A stretch of 52,318 nucleotides of DNA, taken from an uncultured Burkholderiales bacterium. GTDB lineage: Bacteria > Pseudomonadota > Gammaproteobacteria > Burkholderiales > Burkholderiaceae_E. Every line of letters starts with the position of its first letter. The first letter of the stretch is position 1. Under the pieces are notes generated by a model, which was not told where the DNA came from, made no database searches, and was given only the letters and a program-made list of their open reading frames with translations. Below, piece after piece: positions 25,098-35,421 of the stretch. The position numbers and the translations under genes are program-made. The DNA lies in NCBI GenBank assembly GCA_903903975.1, contig CAIVAS010000253.1, positions 1 to 52,318 of the forward strand. The letters run 5' to 3'.

Positions 25098-26939
25098 ATG
25101 AAAGCGTCACTGCTCAAATACTCCTTCGCCATGTCGCTTGGCATGGCGGCAATGCTGCCGCAGCAGGCGATGTCAGCGCCCGCGCAGACCGCCGACGCGA
25201 TCTATCTCGGCGGACCGATCGTGACCGTCAACGAGTTCCAGCCGCAGGCCGAGGCGATCGCGATACGCGGCGGGCGAATCATCGCGGTCGGTTATCGCGA
25301 CGAGGTGATGAAGCTCAAGGGGGCAAAAACGCGGATTGTCGACCTTGGCGGCAAAGCGCTGCTGCCGGGTTTCATCGATCCGCACGGCCATGTCTACAGC
25401 ACCGGCATCCAGGCGATTTCGGCCAACCTTCTGCCAATGCCTGACGGCGAGGTCAACACGATCGCCGCGCTGCAATCGGCGCTCAAGTCATGGAGCCAGC
25501 AGAACGCCCAACTGACGGCCAAATACCGATGGTTCGTCGGTTTCGGCTACGACGATGCGCAGCTTGCCGAGCGTCGTCATCCCACGCGCGAAGACCTCGA
25601 CAAGGTATCAACCGACCTGCCGGTAGTCATCGTTCATCAGTCCGGCCATCTGGGCGTAATGAACAGCAAGGCACTCGAATTGGTCGGCATCACCGCCAGC
25701 ACGAAAAACCCCCAAGGTGGCCTGATTCGGCGCAAGGCAGGCAGCCAGGAGCCCGACGGTGTGCTCGAGGAAGCCGCGTTCTTCGGTCCGCTGTTGTCCC
25801 TGATCAGCAAGCTCAGCCCGGATGCCAACCTTGCCATCTTCAAAGCGGGCGCCGACCTTTACAAGCGTTACGGCTACACCACCGGCCAGGAAGGGCGAGC
25901 GACTCCCGGCTCGGTGACGACGATGGCCGCGCTCGCCAAGGCAGGCGGTCTCGAAATCGACGTGGTCGCCTATCCCGACATGGCGGCCGACCCCGACATC
26001 ATCCGGGCGCCACTTCTCTCCAGGCAGTACACCGGAAAATTTCGAATCGGCGGCGCAAAGCTCACGCTCGACGGCTCACCGCAGGGCAAGACCGCCTGGC
26101 TGACCAAGCCTTATTTCAAGGTGCCCGACGGGCAGCCCGCCGACTATCGCGGCTATGCCCAGTTCAAGGACGATCAGGTCAATGACTATGTCGACCTCGC
26201 GTTCAAGAATGGCTGGCAGCTGCTCGCGCATGTCAATGGCGACGCCGCCATCGACCAGTTCATCGCGGCGGTCAAGCTCGCCGAGAAAAAGTACGGGATG
26301 GCCGACCGGCGCACAGTCGCCATCCACGGCCAGACGACGCGCCTCGATCAGGTCGAGGCCTTCAAGGCACTTGGCATCATTCCGTCCTTTTTCGCGATGC
26401 ATACCTTCTACTGGGGCGACTGGCACCGCGATTCAGTACTCGGGCCCGAGCGTGCGGCCAATATTTCGCCGACCGGCTGGGCACTCGAGCGGGGGATGAT
26501 CTTCACCTCGCATCACGATGCCCCGGTCGCGATGCCCGATCCGATGCGCGTCATCTCGTCGACCGTCAATCGCGTGACCCGCAGCGGCAAGGTGCTTGGC
26601 CCCGAGCAACGCGTCAGCCCGCTGACAGCCATCAAAGCGCATACCCTGTGGTCGGCCTATCAGCACTTCGAAGAGAAGACGAAGGGTTCGCTCGAGGTCG
26701 GCAAACTCGCCGATTTCGTGGTGCTCGATCGCAATCCGCTCGCAGGCGACCCGCTGACGATTGCCGACATCAAGGTGATGGAGACCATCAAGGAAGGCAA
26801 GACGGTCTATCAGCGCGATGCGGTGGCAAAGAAAGCCGCGACGACGTCCAGCTGCGCTGATTCGGGCGCCTGCTTCCAGATCGCCAGCCGCGCGCTCGGG
26901 CTGGCCGGCCTGGTTCATGTCCACGACAGCCATCAGTGA
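25098..26939 (+). CDS. Exported amidohydrolase-family protein (YtcJ-like)
   Basis: Metal-dependent hydrolase of 613 aa in the amidohydrolase 3 (YtcJ) family. A signal peptide (about residues 1-25, ending in MSAPA) suggests periplasmic location. After the small beta-sandwich start (DAIYLGGPIVTVNEF) come the metal-site PHGHVY, then VIVHQSGHLGVMNSKALE, LAHVNGDAAIDQF, VAIHGQTTRLDQ, TSHHDAPVAMPDPM and the end motif GSLEVGKLADFVVLDRNP. These supply the expected His and Asp ligands. The substrate is unknown; N-substituted amides or cyclic ureides are usual for the superfamily. It is translated directly after the Bug protein. A paralogue lies at 33478-35421 on the other strand. Confidence 0.85.
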   Translation: MKASLLKYSFAMSLGMAAMLPQQAMSAPAQTADAIYLGGPIVTVNEFQPQAEAIAIRGGRIIAVGYRDEVMKLKGAKTRIVDLGGKALLPGFIDPHGHVYSTGIQAISANLLPMPDGEVNTIAALQSALKSWSQQNAQLTAKYRWFVGFGYDDAQLAERRHPTREDLDKVSTDLPVVIVHQSGHLGVMNSKALELVGITASTKNPQGGLIRRKAGSQEPDGVLEEAAFFGPLLSLISKLSPDANLAIFKAGADLYKRYGYTTGQEGRATPGSVTTMAALAKAGGLEIDVVAYPDMAADPDIIRAPLLSRQYTGKFRIGGAKLTLDGSPQGKTAWLTKPYFKVPDGQPADYRGYAQFKDDQVNDYVDLAFKNGWQLLAHVNGDAAIDQFIAAVKLAEKKYGMADRRTVAIHGQTTRLDQVEAFKALGIIPSFFAMHTFYWGDWHRDSVLGPERAANISPTGWALERGMIFTSHHDAPVAMPDPMRVISSTVNRVTRSGKVLGPEQRVSPLTAIKAHTLWSAYQHFEEKTKGSLEVGKLADFVVLDRNPLAGDPLTIADIKVMETIKEGKTVYQRDAVAKKAATTSSCADSGACFQIASRALGLAGLVHVHDSHQ

Positions 26940-28642: not shown

Positions 28643-29404
28643 ACGAGTTTAAAGACAAATGTATTGGGCGCCTCGATCGCAGCACTCTGCCTGGCCGCCT
28701 CGCCGGCCGACGCAGGCGTCGTCTCCTTCAGCAGTATTGTTGGCGCCTGGAGCAATGCCAGCCCGTCTTCGAGCATCGATTTCAACTCGGGGGCGGGAAC
28801 GTCGCTTGCCCGGGTCAGATGGGGAGGAACAATATTCGCCAACGACAGCGGCTACGACTTTCTGGCCGTCCCGGGCACCACCAGTGTCACCGTCCCACCG
28901 TCACAGTCCTCGATCTTCGATCTCGGAACCTTCACGCACATCAACAATCCAATCAGCGGCAACTCGATCGACTCGATCAGACTGACCGTCAACAAAAATG
29001 TCGCGATCGACAGCGTCAGTCAGGGCAATCTGCAATTCGTCTTCGACTTCTTTCACGATGAGACGCCGAATGGCGCGAACCCCTGCCAATACGGTGGCCA
29101 CAACAACCAGGGCGTCAACATCAACGGTTGTGCCGACCGGGTCACCACCGCCTACAACACCCTGTCGCAGACTTTCACGGTTGGCTCCGACATCTACACC
29201 ATTGATGTGCTGGGCTTCAAACTCGGGAACAACCCGGCGGTCAATGAATTTTTCACCAAAGAAGATTTCATCAACGACGCCACCCTGCAGGCTCAGGTCA
29301 AGTTGCGCAGCGAGGTCAATGTGCCCGAGCCTGCCACGCTCGGTCTGATCGGCCTGAGCCTGATGCTGGTGGGCGCAAACGGACTGAGGCGACGAAAGCG
29401 CTGA
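28643..29404 (+). CDS. PEP-CTERM protein with probable non-canonical (ACG) start
   Basis: Secreted protein of ~253 aa ending in the PEP-CTERM sorting tag: VPEPATLGLIGLSLMLVG followed by a basic RRRKR tail, processed by an exosortase for surface or matrix attachment. The body has a THINNPI segment seen in choice-of-anchor-type domains, and a pair of cysteines around the HNNQG region. No ATG or GTG exists in frame upstream of the signal peptide core SIAALCLAASPADA. The TTG at 28664 would leave a signal without a basic n-region. The ACG at 28643 has GGGAG six bases upstream and gives TSLKTNVLGAS, a proper n-region. No exosortase gene lies in this window. The frame itself is secure; the start is uncertain. 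Confidence 0.75.
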   Translation, partial: TSLKTNVLGASIAALCLAASPADAGVVSFSSIVGAWSNASPSSSIDFNSGAGTSLARVRWGGTIFANDSGYDFLAVPGTTSVTVPPSQSSIFDLGTFTHINNPISGNSIDSIRLTVNKNVAIDSVSQGNLQFVFDFFHDETPNGANPCQYGGHNNQGVNINGCADRVTTAYNTLSQTFTVGSDIYTIDVLGFKLGNNPAVNEFFTKEDFINDATLQAQVKLRSEVNVPEPATLGLIGLSLMLVGANGLRRRKR

Positions 29405-29417
29405 GCCGACGAGCCGC

Positions 29418-30053
29418 CTAGCGGATCCCGATGATCTTGTGCATCTGCACCGACAGACGCCACTGGGGATTCGCCTGGCAATAAGCGAGTGCGGCTTCGG
29501 TATTGCGCAGGCGATCCGGACCATCCATCGGCTGCAGCAGACGATGCTCGAATGACAGATGCTCAACCGCTTCCGGCAACAGACCTGGCTGCGGATAGAC
29601 GAGCTTCAGTTCATGGCCCTGCGTCTGCACGATCGCTGCGCCCGCCTTCGGGCTCATGCAGATCCAGTCGATTCCTGCGGGAGCCTTGAGCGTTCCGTTG
29701 GTTTCGACCGCGATCGTGAAACCCGCGGCATGCAGCGCGTCGATCAAGACCTCGTCGACCTGCAGCAGCGGCTCTCCGCCGGTCAGCACCACAAATCGGT
29801 GAGCGGTTGAGGCCACCGGCCACTGCGCTGCCACTTGCGCAGCAAGCGACTCGGCATCAGGGTATTTCCCGCCAAGCGTGCCGTCGGTGCCCACGAAGTC
29901 GGTGTCGCAGAACTGGCAGACTGCCGTCGTGCGATCGACCTCACGACCCGTCCAGAGGTTGCAGCCCGAAAAGCGGCAAAAGACCGCAGGTCGACCGGCA
30001 TGAAGGCCTTCGCCCTGCAAGGTGTAAAAAATTTCTTTCACCGAATAGGTCAT
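29418..30053 (-). CDS. queE: 7-carboxy-7-deazaguanine synthase QueE
   Basis: Radical SAM enzyme of 211 aa that contracts 6-carboxy-tetrahydropterin to 7-carboxy-7-deazaguanine in queuosine synthesis. It carries the QueE variant cluster motif CX14CX2C: Cys31 in SGCNLW, then CQFC (46-49). The VLTGGEPLLQ motif contacts S-adenosylmethionine. The N-terminus YSVKEIFYTLQGEGLHAGRPA is highly typical. It is the third gene of queC-queD-queE, four bases after queD. Its end faces the PEP-CTERM gene with only 13 bases between stops. Confidence 0.94.
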   Translation of the reverse strand: MTYSVKEIFYTLQGEGLHAGRPAVFCRFSGCNLWTGREVDRTTAVCQFCDTDFVGTDGTLGGKYPDAESLAAQVAAQWPVASTAHRFVVLTGGEPLLQVDEVLIDALHAAGFTIAVETNGTLKAPAGIDWICMSPKAGAAIVQTQGHELKLVYPQPGLLPEAVEHLSFEHRLLQPMDGPDRLRNTEAALAYCQANPQWRLSVQMHKIIGIR

Positions 30054-30056
30054 GCC

Positions 30057-31172
30057 TCACACCGGCAATGCCGGCCCCTCAAGGTCCTGCGCGATGATCG
30101 AGCCGCAGCCTTCGGTCTCGAAGAGATCGACCCGCACCAGTTCGGGCAGGACAACCCGGGTCGTGCGATAGATCCAGTCGGCGATGCTCGCGGTATCGGT
30201 ATCGGCGAGGCCCTCCAGCTCATGGAGCGGCCGATGATCGATCGCCTTGAACACCGGATCGAACAGCGTCTTGACGTCGCCGAAGTCGAGTGTCCATCCC
30301 ATCAGGGTATCGATCGGTGCGCTCAGGTGCAGCCGCAGCGTGAAGGTGTGGCCATGTATGCCGCGCTCGGCAGCGCCCGTCGGCGCACGCCGAATCTGCA
30401 CCGCGCTGTCGAGCGTGAAGTCCTTCCAGATGCGGTAATGGCTGCCATCGAAATTCGCGCCGCACGAGCCGGTCTCGAAGACCGTGACCCAGGAAAGCTC
30501 AGGCAGCACCGGGCGCAGTCGGGCCCACAGCCATGAGGAGATCAGCTCGCTGGTCGGATTGCCCAGCCCCTCGATGTCATTGAGGCAGCGATAGTCGAGT
30601 TCCCGCTGCAGCGGCGCCCAGATCGCATCGAGGTGATCGTAGTCGATACTGATCGCACGCCCGCCGAGGTCCTGGTTGGCATGCACGATGACTTCGAAGC
30701 CATGGCCGTGCATGCGACCGCACTTGTGACCCGGCGCCACATTGGGTAACTGGTGCGCCGCCTGAAACCGGTATCGCCGCCAGACATGCGCATGGCCGGC
30801 ACGGTCGAGGTCGACACCCTGATGCGCGGTACTCTGCACCGCGATGCGACCGATCTGCGGCATATCCAGGCGGGTTCTGATCCACCGGGCGATGTTCTCG
30901 TCGGTCGGCTGATCGATGACGGAATTCAGATGAACGTAATTGAGCGGCTCGAGCACCTCGGTCATCCGCTGCCGCAATGCTGGAACCTCGCCACCGGCAT
31001 AAGGCGCCCAATCAGGTGCCAGCTGAGCAAACGCCGAGGCCTTGAAACTGTGGCCATGCAGGGCCCGGCAGCGGTGCCCGTCGGGCAGCAGATCGACATG
31101 CCGCGCCGATTCGAAGCCACCGGTCGCCACCGTCATCAGCAAGGTCGACGGCAAGGTCGAGGTCGCGATCAT
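30057..31172 (-). CDS. queD: Three-domain 6-carboxytetrahydropterin synthase (QueD triplication)
   Basis: QueD makes 6-carboxy-tetrahydropterin from dihydroneopterin triphosphate. Ordinary QueD is ~120 aa; this chain of 371 aa holds three tandem T-fold domains (about 18-125, 130-243, 245-365). Domain 1 has the zinc and nucleophile pieces (His25, His33, Cys35, HGH 39-41), but LNYVHLN replaces the family's catalytic Asp-His and Ser114 stands where Glu should be. Domain 2 is the best match: AAH140, GHKC151, HGH 155-157, Asp193 followed by Tyr194 instead of His, and Glu233. Domain 3 lost the first His and the Cys but keeps HGH 273-275, Asp312-His313 and Glu352. T-fold active sites form at subunit interfaces, so the copies may complement each other. 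It overlaps queC by four bases. Confidence 0.9.
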
Positions 31173-31876
31173 GCCGGGCCGGCCTGGGCGCGAAACGCGG
31201 CATGCCCGTGGGCACGCAGTTCGCAGGCCGGGCAGCTGCCGCAGCCGTAGCCCCAGGCATGCCGCACCGAGCGGTCACCGAGATAGCAGGTATGGGTCTG
31301 CTCGATGATCAGATCGACCAGCGCCGTGCCGCCCAGCGACTCGGCCAGACGCCAGGTTGCAGCCTTGTCGATCCACATCAGCGGCGTCTCGATCACCATC
31401 GGACTGGCCAGCCCCAGACTCAAGGCCACCTGCAGCGCCTTGAGCGTGTTGTCGCGGCAATCGGGATAGCCCGAGAAGTCGGTCTCGCACATGCCGCCCA
31501 CCAGGACCTCAAGACCGCGCCGATAGGCCAGCGTGGCGGCAAAGGTCAGGAAGAGCAGATTGCGTCCGGGCACAAAGGTGTTCGGCAGACCGTTTTTTTC
31601 GAATTCGATCGCTTTGTCCTGGGTGAGCGCGGTGTCACTGATCTGGCCAAGCAAAGACAGATCAAGCAGATGATCGTCGCCGAGCTTGCCGCGCCAACGC
31701 GCAAACTGTGCTCGGAACTCGTCGAGGACCTTCAGTCGGCAATCGAGTTCAACCGCATGGCGCTGGCCGTAAGCGAAGGCAACGGTCTCGACATGCTGAT
31801 AGCGCTCAAGGGCCCAGGCCAGGCAGGTGGTCGAGTCCTGACCACCGGAGAAAAGAACGAGCGCACGTGAGTTCAC
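31169..31876 (-). CDS. queC: 7-cyano-7-deazaguanine synthase QueC
   Basis: ATP-dependent enzyme of 235 aa that converts 7-carboxy-7-deazaguanine to preQ0. The PP-loop [19 protein letters not shown] lies at the N-terminus, and the zinc-binding cysteine cluster is at the C-terminus ([13 protein letters not shown]). The start is a GTG (31876). It is the first gene of queC-queD-queE and overlaps queD by four bases. queF and the GTP cyclohydrolase are not in the window. The BLUF gene lies 99 bases upstream on the same strand; the gap has a T-rich stretch but no strong terminator, so read-through is possible. No preQ1 riboswitch was recognisable. Confidence 0.95.
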
Positions 31877-31975
31877 AGCATCAACCGGTTGGAGCGTTTC
31901 CGATTAGCCGTCGGACTGCTCAAATCGAACCCGCAGACGACCGCAGACAGAATCGGAAGAAAAATCGGGGTCAGA

Positions 31976-32593
31976 TCAGGATTTCGGACGCAAGAGCGCC
32001 AAAGCCGATTCACACATCCGCAGATGGTCTGCGTTCACACCGCCGCCATTGGCTGCCGCGATCACGCTTTCGAGCACCAGACTTGCCACCTCGGCCCGGC
32101 CACGGGATTGCACCAGCGCTACCCGAAGATGCTCAATCACCTTGTCCTTGGCGTCGATTTCGCGCACGAGCGGGTCCCAGTGGCTGACCCGGTAATGCTC
32201 CATCAGGCCCTGGACCATCGACTGGCTTGACGCCAGGGTGGCAAAGTTGAAGTCCTTCTCGCTGAAATCGCGCAGACCTTCGATGGTCTTGAAACTGTCG
32301 CTGGTCACGCGTTCGAAGCCCATGCTCCAGTCGGCATATTGCCGCGCCTCGATCGCGCGGCGACCAAGCAGCTGCACCGAGGTGTGGCGAGGGTCCTTGC
32401 CGATCACCGCCACCAGATCGTCGACCACCCGGTCATCGCCCTCGACAACCTGAAGGAAGGTGCCATTGGCAAACAGCAACATACCGGTGATGTCTCGGGC
32501 CATGTTATTGCGGCGACACTGCATGAGCAGTGAGAGCAAGTCCTCAGAGGACATTGGCGCTGCCGCCTGGCTGATATACGAAATCTGGATCAT
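31976..32593 (-). CDS. BLUF-domain blue-light photoreceptor
   Basis: Flavin-binding light sensor of 205 aa. The ATG at 32593 is preceded by a strong AGGAGGT. The BLUF domain (1 to about 95) has the photocycle residues: Tyr6 in ISYIS, Asn30 in CRRNN, Gln48 in GTFLQVVEGD, and Trp89/Met91 in ADWSMGF. The ITGMLLF and DPRHTSV segments are also standard. The C-terminal ~110 residues are helical with no EAL, GGDEF or other known output domain, so it is a short-type BLUF that probably signals through a partner. It is divergent from a SOUL heme-binding gene and lies upstream of queC on the same strand. Confidence 0.9.
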   Translation of the reverse strand: MIQISYISQAAAPMSSEDLLSLLMQCRRNNMARDITGMLLFANGTFLQVVEGDDRVVDDLVAVIGKDPRHTSVQLLGRRAIEARQYADWSMGFERVTSDSFKTIEGLRDFSEKDFNFATLASSQSMVQGLMEHYRVSHWDPLVREIDAKDKVIEHLRVALVQSRGRAEVASLVLESVIAAANGGGVNADHLRMCESALALLRPKS

Positions 32594-32802
32594 CGAGGCA
32601 CCTCCTGCCGATAAGCTGCTCCCGATATTGTAGTGGGTGATTGCTGCACCTGCGATAAATTGGCTGCCTGACTGATACACGCGCCATGCGATCGCAGCTC
32701 GGCCCTGCCGGCCGGGGCGCGCAGTCGCTCACCGTGATAACCCTTCGCCGCAAGGGGCCTGCCGTCCTTGCGTAAGCTGGAACCTCTTGGAGGAAAACAC
32801 CC

Positions 32803-33441
32803 ATGCAAGCTTGTCAGCCAAGACTGCTCGCTTTTTTTCCCGTCTTCCTTTCCGCGCTTCTGCTCTCAGCCCTGCCCGTCATGAGCCACGCCATCGAAGA
32901 ACCGGGATACGAGGTCATCCGGAAAATCGATCCGGTCGAGCTGCGCCGCTACGCCCCGTATGTGGTGGCCGAGGTGGTTCTGAACACGGCCCCTGAAAGC
33001 GCAGGCAACCAGGCCTTCCCGATCCTTGCGGGCTATATTTTCGGCAAGAACAAGGGGGAGCGGAAACTGCCCATGACCGCGCCGGTCATCCAGACCCCCG
33101 CGCCGGTGCGGCTTGAGATGACTGCCCCGGTGACGCAATCGGCAGTGCCAGGCGGCACGCTGGTGCAGTTCGTACTACCGAAAGACGTCACGCTTGCCAG
33201 CGCACCCGAGCCGATTGACGAACGAGTGCACTTGCGGGAAGTGCCGGCGACCACCTGGGCGGTCATTCGCTATTCAGGCGGCTGGTCGCAGTCCAATTAC
33301 GAGGAGCATCTGACGCGGCTGAAAACCCTGCTTGACGCCGCGGGCATCGTAACGCAGGGTGAGCCGGTGCTGGCGCGCTACGACCCACCCTTCATGCCGT
33401 CGTTCTTGCGGCGCAACGAGATCTGGCTGGAGGTCCGGTAG
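32803..33441 (+). CDS. SOUL-family heme-binding protein, exported
   Basis: Protein of 212 aa with a Sec signal peptide (about 1-29, ending in MSHA). The SOUL/HBP fold starts at YEVIRKIDPVELRRYAPYVVAEV and continues with GYIFGKNKGERKLPMTAPVI, EMTAPVTQ and, near the end, YDPPFMPSFLRRNEIWLEV, all typical. Family members bind heme or other tetrapyrroles. Periplasmic location is inferred from the signal. GGAGGA lies eight bases before the ATG. It shares a 209-base promoter region with the divergent BLUF gene, a pairing that would fit light-dependent tetrapyrrole handling, though nothing here proves it. Confidence 0.88.
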   Translation: MQACQPRLLAFFPVFLSALLLSALPVMSHAIEEPGYEVIRKIDPVELRRYAPYVVAEVVLNTAPESAGNQAFPILAGYIFGKNKGERKLPMTAPVIQTPAPVRLEMTAPVTQSAVPGGTLVQFVLPKDVTLASAPEPIDERVHLREVPATTWAVIRYSGGWSQSNYEEHLTRLKTLLDAAGIVTQGEPVLARYDPPFMPSFLRRNEIWLEVR

Positions 33442-33477: not shown

Positions 33478-35421
33478 TTACTCGGAAGCGCGCACCAGGC
33501 GCGCCAGCACCTGTTTCTGCTCGGCCGTCAGTGGGCGCTCGGGCACACCTGCGTGGTCATGGACATGATGCCGGTCGATCTGGTCAGCCGGGACGACCGG
33601 CATGGCCGTCGCCCGAGCATCGGGTTTTCGGTTGTAGACCAGCACGCCTTCCTTGAGGGTCTGGACGACCTGGATGTCCTTGATCGCCATCGGGTCGACC
33701 TTGACCGGGTTTCGATCGAGCACCACCAGATCCGCCAGCTTGCCGACCTCGAGCGTGCCCTTGGTCTTTTCTTCCTTGTACTGGTAGGCACCATTGATCG
33801 TCAGGCTGCGCATGGCATCGTAGGCCGAGACACGCTCTTGCGGCGCTAACGGTTTGCCTGAGCGGGTCACGCGGTTGACAACGTTCCAGGCGGCATACAT
33901 CAGACTCGGACTCACGCCTGCCGGCCAGTCGGTATTGACCGTCCAGTTCACGCCCTGGCGCTGAACCGAGCCGGCAGCGCCGACCCAGTCGATCCGATCG
34001 GGGACCAGACTCATGATGTAGTCACCCATCGGAAAGAGGCCCCCTGCGGTAAAGCTGGGCGTGCCGTTGACTGCCTTGATGCGGGCGATCTGGTCTGGCC
34101 GCAAAAACTGGGCGTGCTGGAAGATCGGACGCCCATCGCTCATGCCCTGACGGCGAATCACGTCCTCCAGCGCCAGCAGGAACTGTTCACTGGCTTCGTC
34201 ACCGATGGCATGGGCAGCAATCTGTCGATTGCTCTTCCAGTACTTGTCCAGAAAGGCGACCAGTTGCTCCTGAGGATCGACCCTCAGACCACGATAATCA
34301 GGGGTTGTCACCCCCGGCGGGTTGGTGATGAAAGGCCGCGACATGAACATGGTGTCGATGCTGCCGTCGAGCCAGAACTTGATTCCGGCGAGGCGCACGC
34401 GATTGATGTAGCGCTTGTCGAGATCGGGTCGCGCAGCAAGCATCGCACTGCCGGTGTCGATATTCGGCGCGTTGCGGCCTTTCTGAATCTGGTAGGCCGC
34501 ATCGATGATCCGATCGGCCGCGGAGGCCTTGGCGAACATCACCAGATCGATCGGCATCAACTGCTCGTCGACAATCGCCTGCGCGATCGGAATGTCATCG
34601 CCACTCAGACCAAGCCCCATCTCGCAGGCGGTGGTGATGCCGTGCTGCGTCCAGAGCGCCACCGCCCGGCCGACACCCTTTCGCGTTTGCGCCGCAGTCA
34701 AGGGCGCACGTGTTGCCAGCACGCCCATCCAGGCGGACTCGGCAGCATGGCCGGTGAGCTCACGAGAGCCGGGTTGACGCGAAAAAAAACCTCCCTCGGG
34801 ATCGGGTGTGTCAGCGGTGAATTTCATCTCGCGGATCAACGCGGTGTTCATGACGCCATGGTGGCCCGACCCGTCGGAGACGCCGATTGGACGGGTTGCG
34901 CTGACGGTATCGAGTTCGGCGGCGGTCGGATGGCGCTTTTCTGCCATTTGCTCGGCGCGATAGCCCATCCCGACAATCCGGTCACCATCGGGCACTTCAG
35001 CCGCATGCGCTTTCATGCGGGCGAGCAGTTCAGGGATGTCCTTGACCCCGGCGAGGTCGGCATCGAGCATCGTGTGCGTCGCATACACCAGATGGCCGTG
35101 CGCATCGATGAACCCGGGCATCAGGGTCGAGCCGGCGAGGTCGATACGGTTGGCACCCGGACCGGCAGCCTGCTGCACTTGCGCGAGCGATCCGACTGCC
35201 GCGATCCGGCCGTCCTTCACCAGCAGCGCCTCGGCGTAGCGCGGAGCGTCACCAACCATCGTGAGAATGTCCCCGCCGGTGTAGTAGTAAGTGGCAGACA
35301 CGGCGGCTGCACGGGAGAGATCGGAGGCCGGTGACGTGTTCGTGGCGCATCCGGTGATTGCAGCCAGACAGGAGAGGCCGATCACTGCGGCCTGGCATCG
35401 AAGGGCGCTAGATAGTGTCAT
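33478..35421 (-). CDS. Amidohydrolase-family lipoprotein (YtcJ-like)
   Basis: Metal-dependent hydrolase of 647 aa, paralogous in layout to the one at 25098-26939. The N-terminus is a lipoprotein signal with lipobox AITGC (Cys25), so it should be membrane anchored. Motifs in order: LTMVGDAPRYAEALLVKDG, metal-site GFIDAHGHLVYATH, GVSDGSGHHGVMNTALI, AAHAIGDEASEQFLLALE, FQHAQFLRPDQIARI, VNRVTRSGKPLAPQERVS and GTLEVGKLADLVVLDRNP. A C-terminal extension holds the His-rich segment DRHHVHDHAG. The substrate is unknown. It stands alone, with no transport gene coupled to it. Confidence 0.84.
   Translation of the reverse strand: MTLSSALRCQAAVIGLSCLAAITGCATNTSPASDLSRAAAVSATYYYTGGDILTMVGDAPRYAEALLVKDGRIAAVGSLAQVQQAAGPGANRIDLAGSTLMPGFIDAHGHLVYATHTMLDADLAGVKDIPELLARMKAHAAEVPDGDRIVGMGYRAEQMAEKRHPTAAELDTVSATRPIGVSDGSGHHGVMNTALIREMKFTADTPDPEGGFFSRQPGSRELTGHAAESAWMGVLATRAPLTAAQTRKGVGRAVALWTQHGITTACEMGLGLSGDDIPIAQAIVDEQLMPIDLVMFAKASAADRIIDAAYQIQKGRNAPNIDTGSAMLAARPDLDKRYINRVRLAGIKFWLDGSIDTMFMSRPFITNPPGVTTPDYRGLRVDPQEQLVAFLDKYWKSNRQIAAHAIGDEASEQFLLALEDVIRRQGMSDGRPIFQHAQFLRPDQIARIKAVNGTPSFTAGGLFPMGDYIMSLVPDRIDWVGAAGSVQRQGVNWTVNTDWPAGVSPSLMYAAWNVVNRVTRSGKPLAPQERVSAYDAMRSLTINGAYQYKEEKTKGTLEVGKLADLVVLDRNPVKVDPMAIKDIQVVQTLKEGVLVYNRKPDARATAMPVVPADQIDRHHVHDHAGVPERPLTAEQKQVLARLVRASE

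Follow-up and report, generated by a model that had tools for sequence, protein, structure and literature searches.

How does an enzyme work when its identical subunits have been joined into one chain and are no longer alike? QueD, which takes part in the biosynthesis of the tRNA nucleoside queuosine, normally consists of six identical subunits. The question is raised by a gene in a 52,318-nucleotide stretch of DNA from an uncultured Burkholderiales bacterium (contig CAIVAS010000253.1 of assembly GCA_903903975.1; the whole stretch is referred to here as the window), which encodes a QueD-like protein of 371 amino acids with three T-fold domains. We consider it likely that this three-domain chain is the putative QueD of the cell, that it arose by triplication, that the catalytic site has been split between domains 2 and 3, and that each chain retains one site.

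Catalytic residues of the three domains

The initial annotation described three T-fold copies in one chain, and its coordinates proved right. Pfam PTPS matches three stretches of the protein (whole-protein E-value of 5.4e-51), and the score against the NCBIfam QueD model TIGR03367 is 140.7 bits, above the cut-off of 89.25. The gene lies on the minus strand, the plus-strand reading of positions 30057 to 31172 being interrupted by stops. In alignment with E. coli QueD, domain 1 carries Arg24 at the position of His16, in a gap-free part of the alignment, followed by Cys35, His39, His41, Asn78-Tyr79 and Ser114. Here, the loss of the Asp-His pair and of the Glu had been recognized, as had Cys35, while the claim that all zinc histidines remain fails at the first of them. 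The residues listed for the other two domains were borne out in full: domain 2 has His140, Cys151, His155, His157, Asp193-Tyr194 and Glu233, and domain 3 has Val258 at the first zinc His, no Cys, His273, His275, Asp312-His313 and Glu352. A single T-fold domain of about 120 residues holding every QueD residue is not found, as domain 2 reads Asp193-Tyr194 and has no Asp-His pair. Because no one domain carries all residues, the protein is a QueD variant and not an ordinary member. The three zinc histidines, the Cys, the pterin-binding Glu and the Asp-His pair are nonetheless all present, shared out over domains 2 and 3.

This division is a property of the family. We aligned 150 distinct three-domain proteins including that of the window (157 before identical ones were removed), leaving out open reading frames shorter than 250 amino acids, profile matches spanning 280 positions or fewer and loci repeating the window. 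Identity to the window protein ranges from 35 to 99%, with a pairwise minimum of 33% and a median of 53%. Half of the rows (75/150) came from a scan for MHGHGFE or QPTDEN[IL]A, which favours His155 and His157 and leaves the other key residues outside the patterns. The three zinc histidines, the Cys and the Glu occur together in domain 2 of all 150 proteins and never in domain 1 or domain 3. The PTSE motif is likewise present in domain 2 in 150/150 and is not kept by domain 3. Conversely, the Asp-His pair is found in domain 3 of every protein, in domain 1 of 40 and in domain 2 of 22. In the GWxxDF loop of domain 3, Trp293 and Asp296 are both invariant (150/150), and the combination of this Trp, this Asp and the Asp-His pair never appears in domain 1 or domain 2. 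Given this 150/150 pattern, the two invariant half-sites are those of domains 2 and 3. A local assembly or gene-calling artefact is ruled out by the 150 distinct proteins.

As a control, 29 single-domain comparators were scored against the domain 2 profile. All nine residues of the two halves lie within one domain in E. coli QueD and in 21 comparator loci scoring at least 130 bits; the remaining 7 of the 29, at 56.5 bits or less, do not have the full set.

A candidate composite site

An intersubunit catalytic triad is named in the title of a 1995 paper by Burgisser. In rat PTPS one subunit is reported to give the Cys and Glu and another His89, which is the same partition of site halves as in the fusion. 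Since sites of this family draw zinc/Cys/Glu and Asp-His from different subunits, copies joined in one chain would be free to lose one half each. One account has each PTPS active site formed between three adjacent monomers (PMC7546909). In the mechanism we propose, a queD of the E. coli type would have been triplicated long ago to give the three-domain chain, a putative 6-carboxytetrahydropterin synthase judged by its sequence, which would act on dihydroneopterin triphosphate and whose domains would take the places of the three subunits in one QueD trimer ring. Domain 2 would have retained the metal/Cys/Glu half and domain 3 the Asp-His half, while domain 1 would have lost essential parts and stayed on as a structural, possibly regulatory, filler. 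Each chain would then have one working site, giving two per assumed chain dimer as opposed to six per hexamer. Two schemes can be drawn. If the Asp-His pair comes from the opposite ring, a chain dimer could match domain 2 to the partner's domain 3 and the two copies of domain 1 to each other. Where the adjacent subunit of the same ring is the source, the composite site would form within one chain. Both the within-chain and the between-chain scheme yield one site per chain.

The trimer-like packing proposed in the initial annotation agrees with structure prediction. An AlphaFold2 model of the window protein contains three T-folds, with a predicted local distance difference test score (pLDDT) of 90, and comparison of this predicted model by fold (VIA-align) supports T-folds packed side by side, an arrangement that is thus predicted with good confidence. 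We infer that the half-sites of domains 2 and 3 come into contact, and likewise that the halves meet as a site, that the ring closes, that chains dimerize and that the enzyme is active.

The conservation across the 150 proteins makes one composite site, built from domains 2 and 3, the most likely arrangement, with domain 1 as a pseudo-domain. The earlier suggestion of one or two composite sites per chain is thereby narrowed to one. A second site, in which Cys35 of domain 1 is completed by Asp312-His313 beside the domain 2 site, could appeal to His39 and His41, which are constant in all 150 proteins, and to Cys35 in the window protein itself. Against it, the first zinc His of domain 1 is absent throughout (Arg in 77, Cys in 62, Leu in 7, Ala in 2, Val in 2, His in 0), and the neighbouring His25, beside Arg24, is not conserved (28/150). 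The position of Cys35 holds Cys in only 17/150 and another residue in 133/150, and the Glu position (114) holds Ser in 141/150 and never Glu. We regard two working sites per chain as extremely improbable.

A different possibility is that domain 2 is self-sufficient, with domain 2 units of different chains pairing and domain 3 serving as scaffold. The 22 proteins with their own Asp-His pair in domain 2 are the ones that come closest to it, but domain 2 lacks the pair in 128/150, the window protein among these, and domain 3 keeps its Asp-His in all 150, the 22 included. This alternative is therefore unlikely in our judgement.

Several observations weigh against the domain 2/domain 3 split as we read it. 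The 22 proteins just mentioned carry Asp-His in domain 2 besides a complete metal/Cys/Glu half, and in 18 of them Asp177 is also present, so that domain 2 there is short of the Trp alone. A strict split is thus genuinely broken by these 22; the division of labour within one gene put forward in the initial annotation is supported for domains 2 and 3, though not without exception. The Trp itself is not a universal mark of QueD, because L147 and L152, among the seven low-scoring comparators, resemble ordinary QueD with Met at that position. The constancy of His39 and His41 and of Ser114 in domain 1 is left unexplained, as is the retention of Glu352 of domain 3 in 124/150. Covariation is mixed as well. 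Pocket-loop pairs between domains were ranked against shifted windows, with three ranks per pair. The pocket of domain 1 with the loop of domain 2 gave 0/89, 5/89 and 0/89, and the pocket of domain 3 with the loop of domain 1 gave 0/84, 0/84 and 10/84. Also high were the domain 3 pocket with the domain 2 loop (0/89, 0/89, 2/89) and the domain 2 pocket with the domain 1 loop (16/84, 3/84, 4/84). The high-scoring domain pairs include ones predicted by neither scheme. The domain 2 pocket with the domain 3 loop ranked low (78/83, 63/83, 82/83), both being nearly invariant, and the pockets gave no covariation signal with the Asp-His segment.

As to domain 1, its pocket, with constant His39 and His41, mostly Arg or Cys at position 24 and Ser at 114, may have become a ligand sensor or an allosteric site through which the one catalytic site is controlled. 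We offer this tentatively and give it a low probability.

Genomic setting, distribution and origin

The gene order queC-queD3-queE forms a tight operon in the window, with queC upstream and queE downstream (Table 1).

Table 1. Coordinates in the window of the three-domain QueD gene, its parts and its operon partners.
Feature	Position	Strand	Basis and remarks
Three-domain QueD (queD3)	30057..31172	minus	open reading frame of 371 amino acids plus stop; three Pfam PTPS stretches; TIGR03367 above cut-off
Domain 1	30801..31142	minus	residues 11-124; probable pseudo-domain; His39 and His41 kept, Arg24 for first zinc His, Ser114 at Glu position
Domain 2	30444..30794	minus	residues 127-243; zinc His140/155/157, Cys151, PTSE 206-209, Glu233
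Domain 3	30087..30440	minus	residues 245-362; Trp293, Asp296, Asp312, His313; zinc/Cys half lost
Cys151 codon	30720..30722	minus	alignment and window sequence
Asp312-His313 codons	30234..30239	minus	alignment and window sequence
queC	31169..31876	minus	PF06508 and TIGR00364; 3' end shares 4 bases with queD3 start
queE (Cx14CxxC type)	29418..30053	minus	TIGR04508, 352.6 bits against a cut-off of 240; begins 3 bases past queD3 stop

The source assembly (270 contigs, 98% complete) contains one queC over its cut-off and one TGT, which makes a queuosine pathway likely in this genome. No second QueD above the TIGR03367 cut-off was found in the assembly. The only other PTPS-family match is a 134-residue protein on contig C99, at 40 bits as against the QueD cut-off of 89.25, which by eye has neither the QueD Cys nor the HGH motif. 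A second, ordinary queD, which would have counted against the initial annotation, was thus not found in this 98%-complete assembly. The C99 protein perhaps belongs to another pterin pathway, and its gene (L002, 1489-1890) has as neighbours one gene that by eye is of the alcohol-dehydrogenase type and, on the other side, one that by eye encodes a glycosyltransferase.

The same domain arrangement was sought across the order with the window protein as query. Besides the source, 58 of 399 genomes have one match covering at least two domains, counted from match rows, and two further genomes (G366 and G313) matched in two pieces. A class sample of 276 genomes gave 15 long matches besides the window's own, and a phylum sample of 299 genomes gave nine, seven in another class and two (G038 and G480) already counted. 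The fusion was found in 0 of 72,556 plasmid records and 0 of 50,697 phage records, where a match had to cover 80% of the query at a single place. Named loci are the best 80 of 372 relatives, which include Roseateles, Paucibacter, Rubrivivax, Ideonella, Sphaerotilus, Rhodoferax and Ramlibacter; among these 80, 76 have queE downstream in the same orientation, in most cases no more than 50 bases from the match, and 28 have queC upstream.

Could the fusion have left the QueD reaction for another pterin product or another pathway? Genome G038 lends itself to this view, since its fusion is part of a Dpd DNA-modification island and the genome has, at another place, an ordinary QueD-like gene (94.9 bits, over the cut-off). 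Dpd, however, also uses preQ0, converting it to 7-deazaguanine in DNA, so this location agrees with the fusion having a role in preQ0 synthesis. A non-QueD role is also opposed by the queC/queE operon, by the single queC over its cut-off and single TGT of the source genome, and by the TIGR03367 score. Moreover, among the 27 fusion-bearing genomes examined for further PTPS proteins (those of the order scan also present in another sample), 25 have no PTPS match outside a fusion, the exceptions being G038 and the source genome with its C99 protein. We therefore hold this explanation to be very unlikely. In G038 (L195, 1-19900; L012, 1-2604) the fusion adjoins genes for DpdD, E, F, H, J and K; a DpdI-like protein there falls below its cut-off, and dpdE is broken by an IS21-type element. 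Genome G018, one of the 25 without a PTPS match outside a fusion, encodes two distinct three-domain QueDs separated by about 52 kb (L011 and L019/L020), with queE after one of them.

In a midpoint-rooted tree of 26 fusions and 29 single-domain proteins, built from short sequences, each domain forms a separate clade (support of 1.0, 0.75 and 0.99). Because each domain forms its own clade, one triplication before the spread of the family fits.

Other features of the region were noted by eye. A BLUF blue-light sensor-like protein (31976-32680, minus) is encoded ahead of queC in the same orientation, and a protein convergent with queE (28664-29404, plus) ends in a PEP-CTERM-like sorting signal. 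Two large, similar amidohydrolase-like proteins (25098-26939, plus; 33478-35421, minus) flank the region on opposite strands. No sigma-70-like site was found in 29000-32900, a result of little weight, and PADLOC left the three-domain QueD itself unmatched.

Known systems and meaning of the fusion

With single-domain QueD (PTPS-I; E. coli QueD, 4NTK) the fusion shares the domain fold, the zinc/Cys/Glu and Asp-His motifs and the queC/queE partners. Unlike E. coli QueD, it has three copies per chain, with zinc/Cys/Glu intact only in domain 2 and Asp-His invariant only in domain 3. The closest parallel is bimodular QueF of the same pathway, as in V. cholerae and E. coli, described as a homodimer of duplicated tandem T-folds with two sites, each interdomain, and with site elements in two domains (PMC5372742). 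Both have tandem side-by-side T-folds, predicted in the case of the fusion, and catalytic elements separated between domains, so the principle of a domain-divided site was already known in this pathway. In contrast, QueF, with two domains, is a nitrile reductase that depends on NADPH, while the fusion has three domains, one of which seems to lack any half-site, and a site of the zinc/Cys/Asp-His type. The fusion would work like bimodular QueF and is no member of the QueF family, which is absent among the Pfam and NCBIfam matches of the protein up to an E-value of 1. Urate oxidase and GTP cyclohydrolase IB also place T-folds side by side in one chain, as in the model of the fusion, but with two domains per chain, other chemistry and about 10% identity. 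No triple QueD or three-domain zinc version with a pseudo-domain was found among the matches listed for freely licensed papers in PubMed Central (PMC), and the part of the PTPS subfamily paper PMC5041015 that was available makes no mention of such a fusion.

With this fusion, nature has in effect run a mutational experiment on an inter-subunit active site, in which the symmetry of a homo-oligomer has been broken and one invariant copy of each half kept. It offers a clean system for asking what leads a cell to abandon the majority of its active sites, and whether the inactive subunits have acquired a function. Checks of catalytic motifs made domain by domain could wrongly score such bacteria as QueD-deficient. 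If domain 1 does hold a sensing pocket, fusion would have turned a symmetric six-site enzyme, placed where preQ0 synthesis begins, into a two-site dimer that is regulated and carries its own pseudoenzyme subunits.
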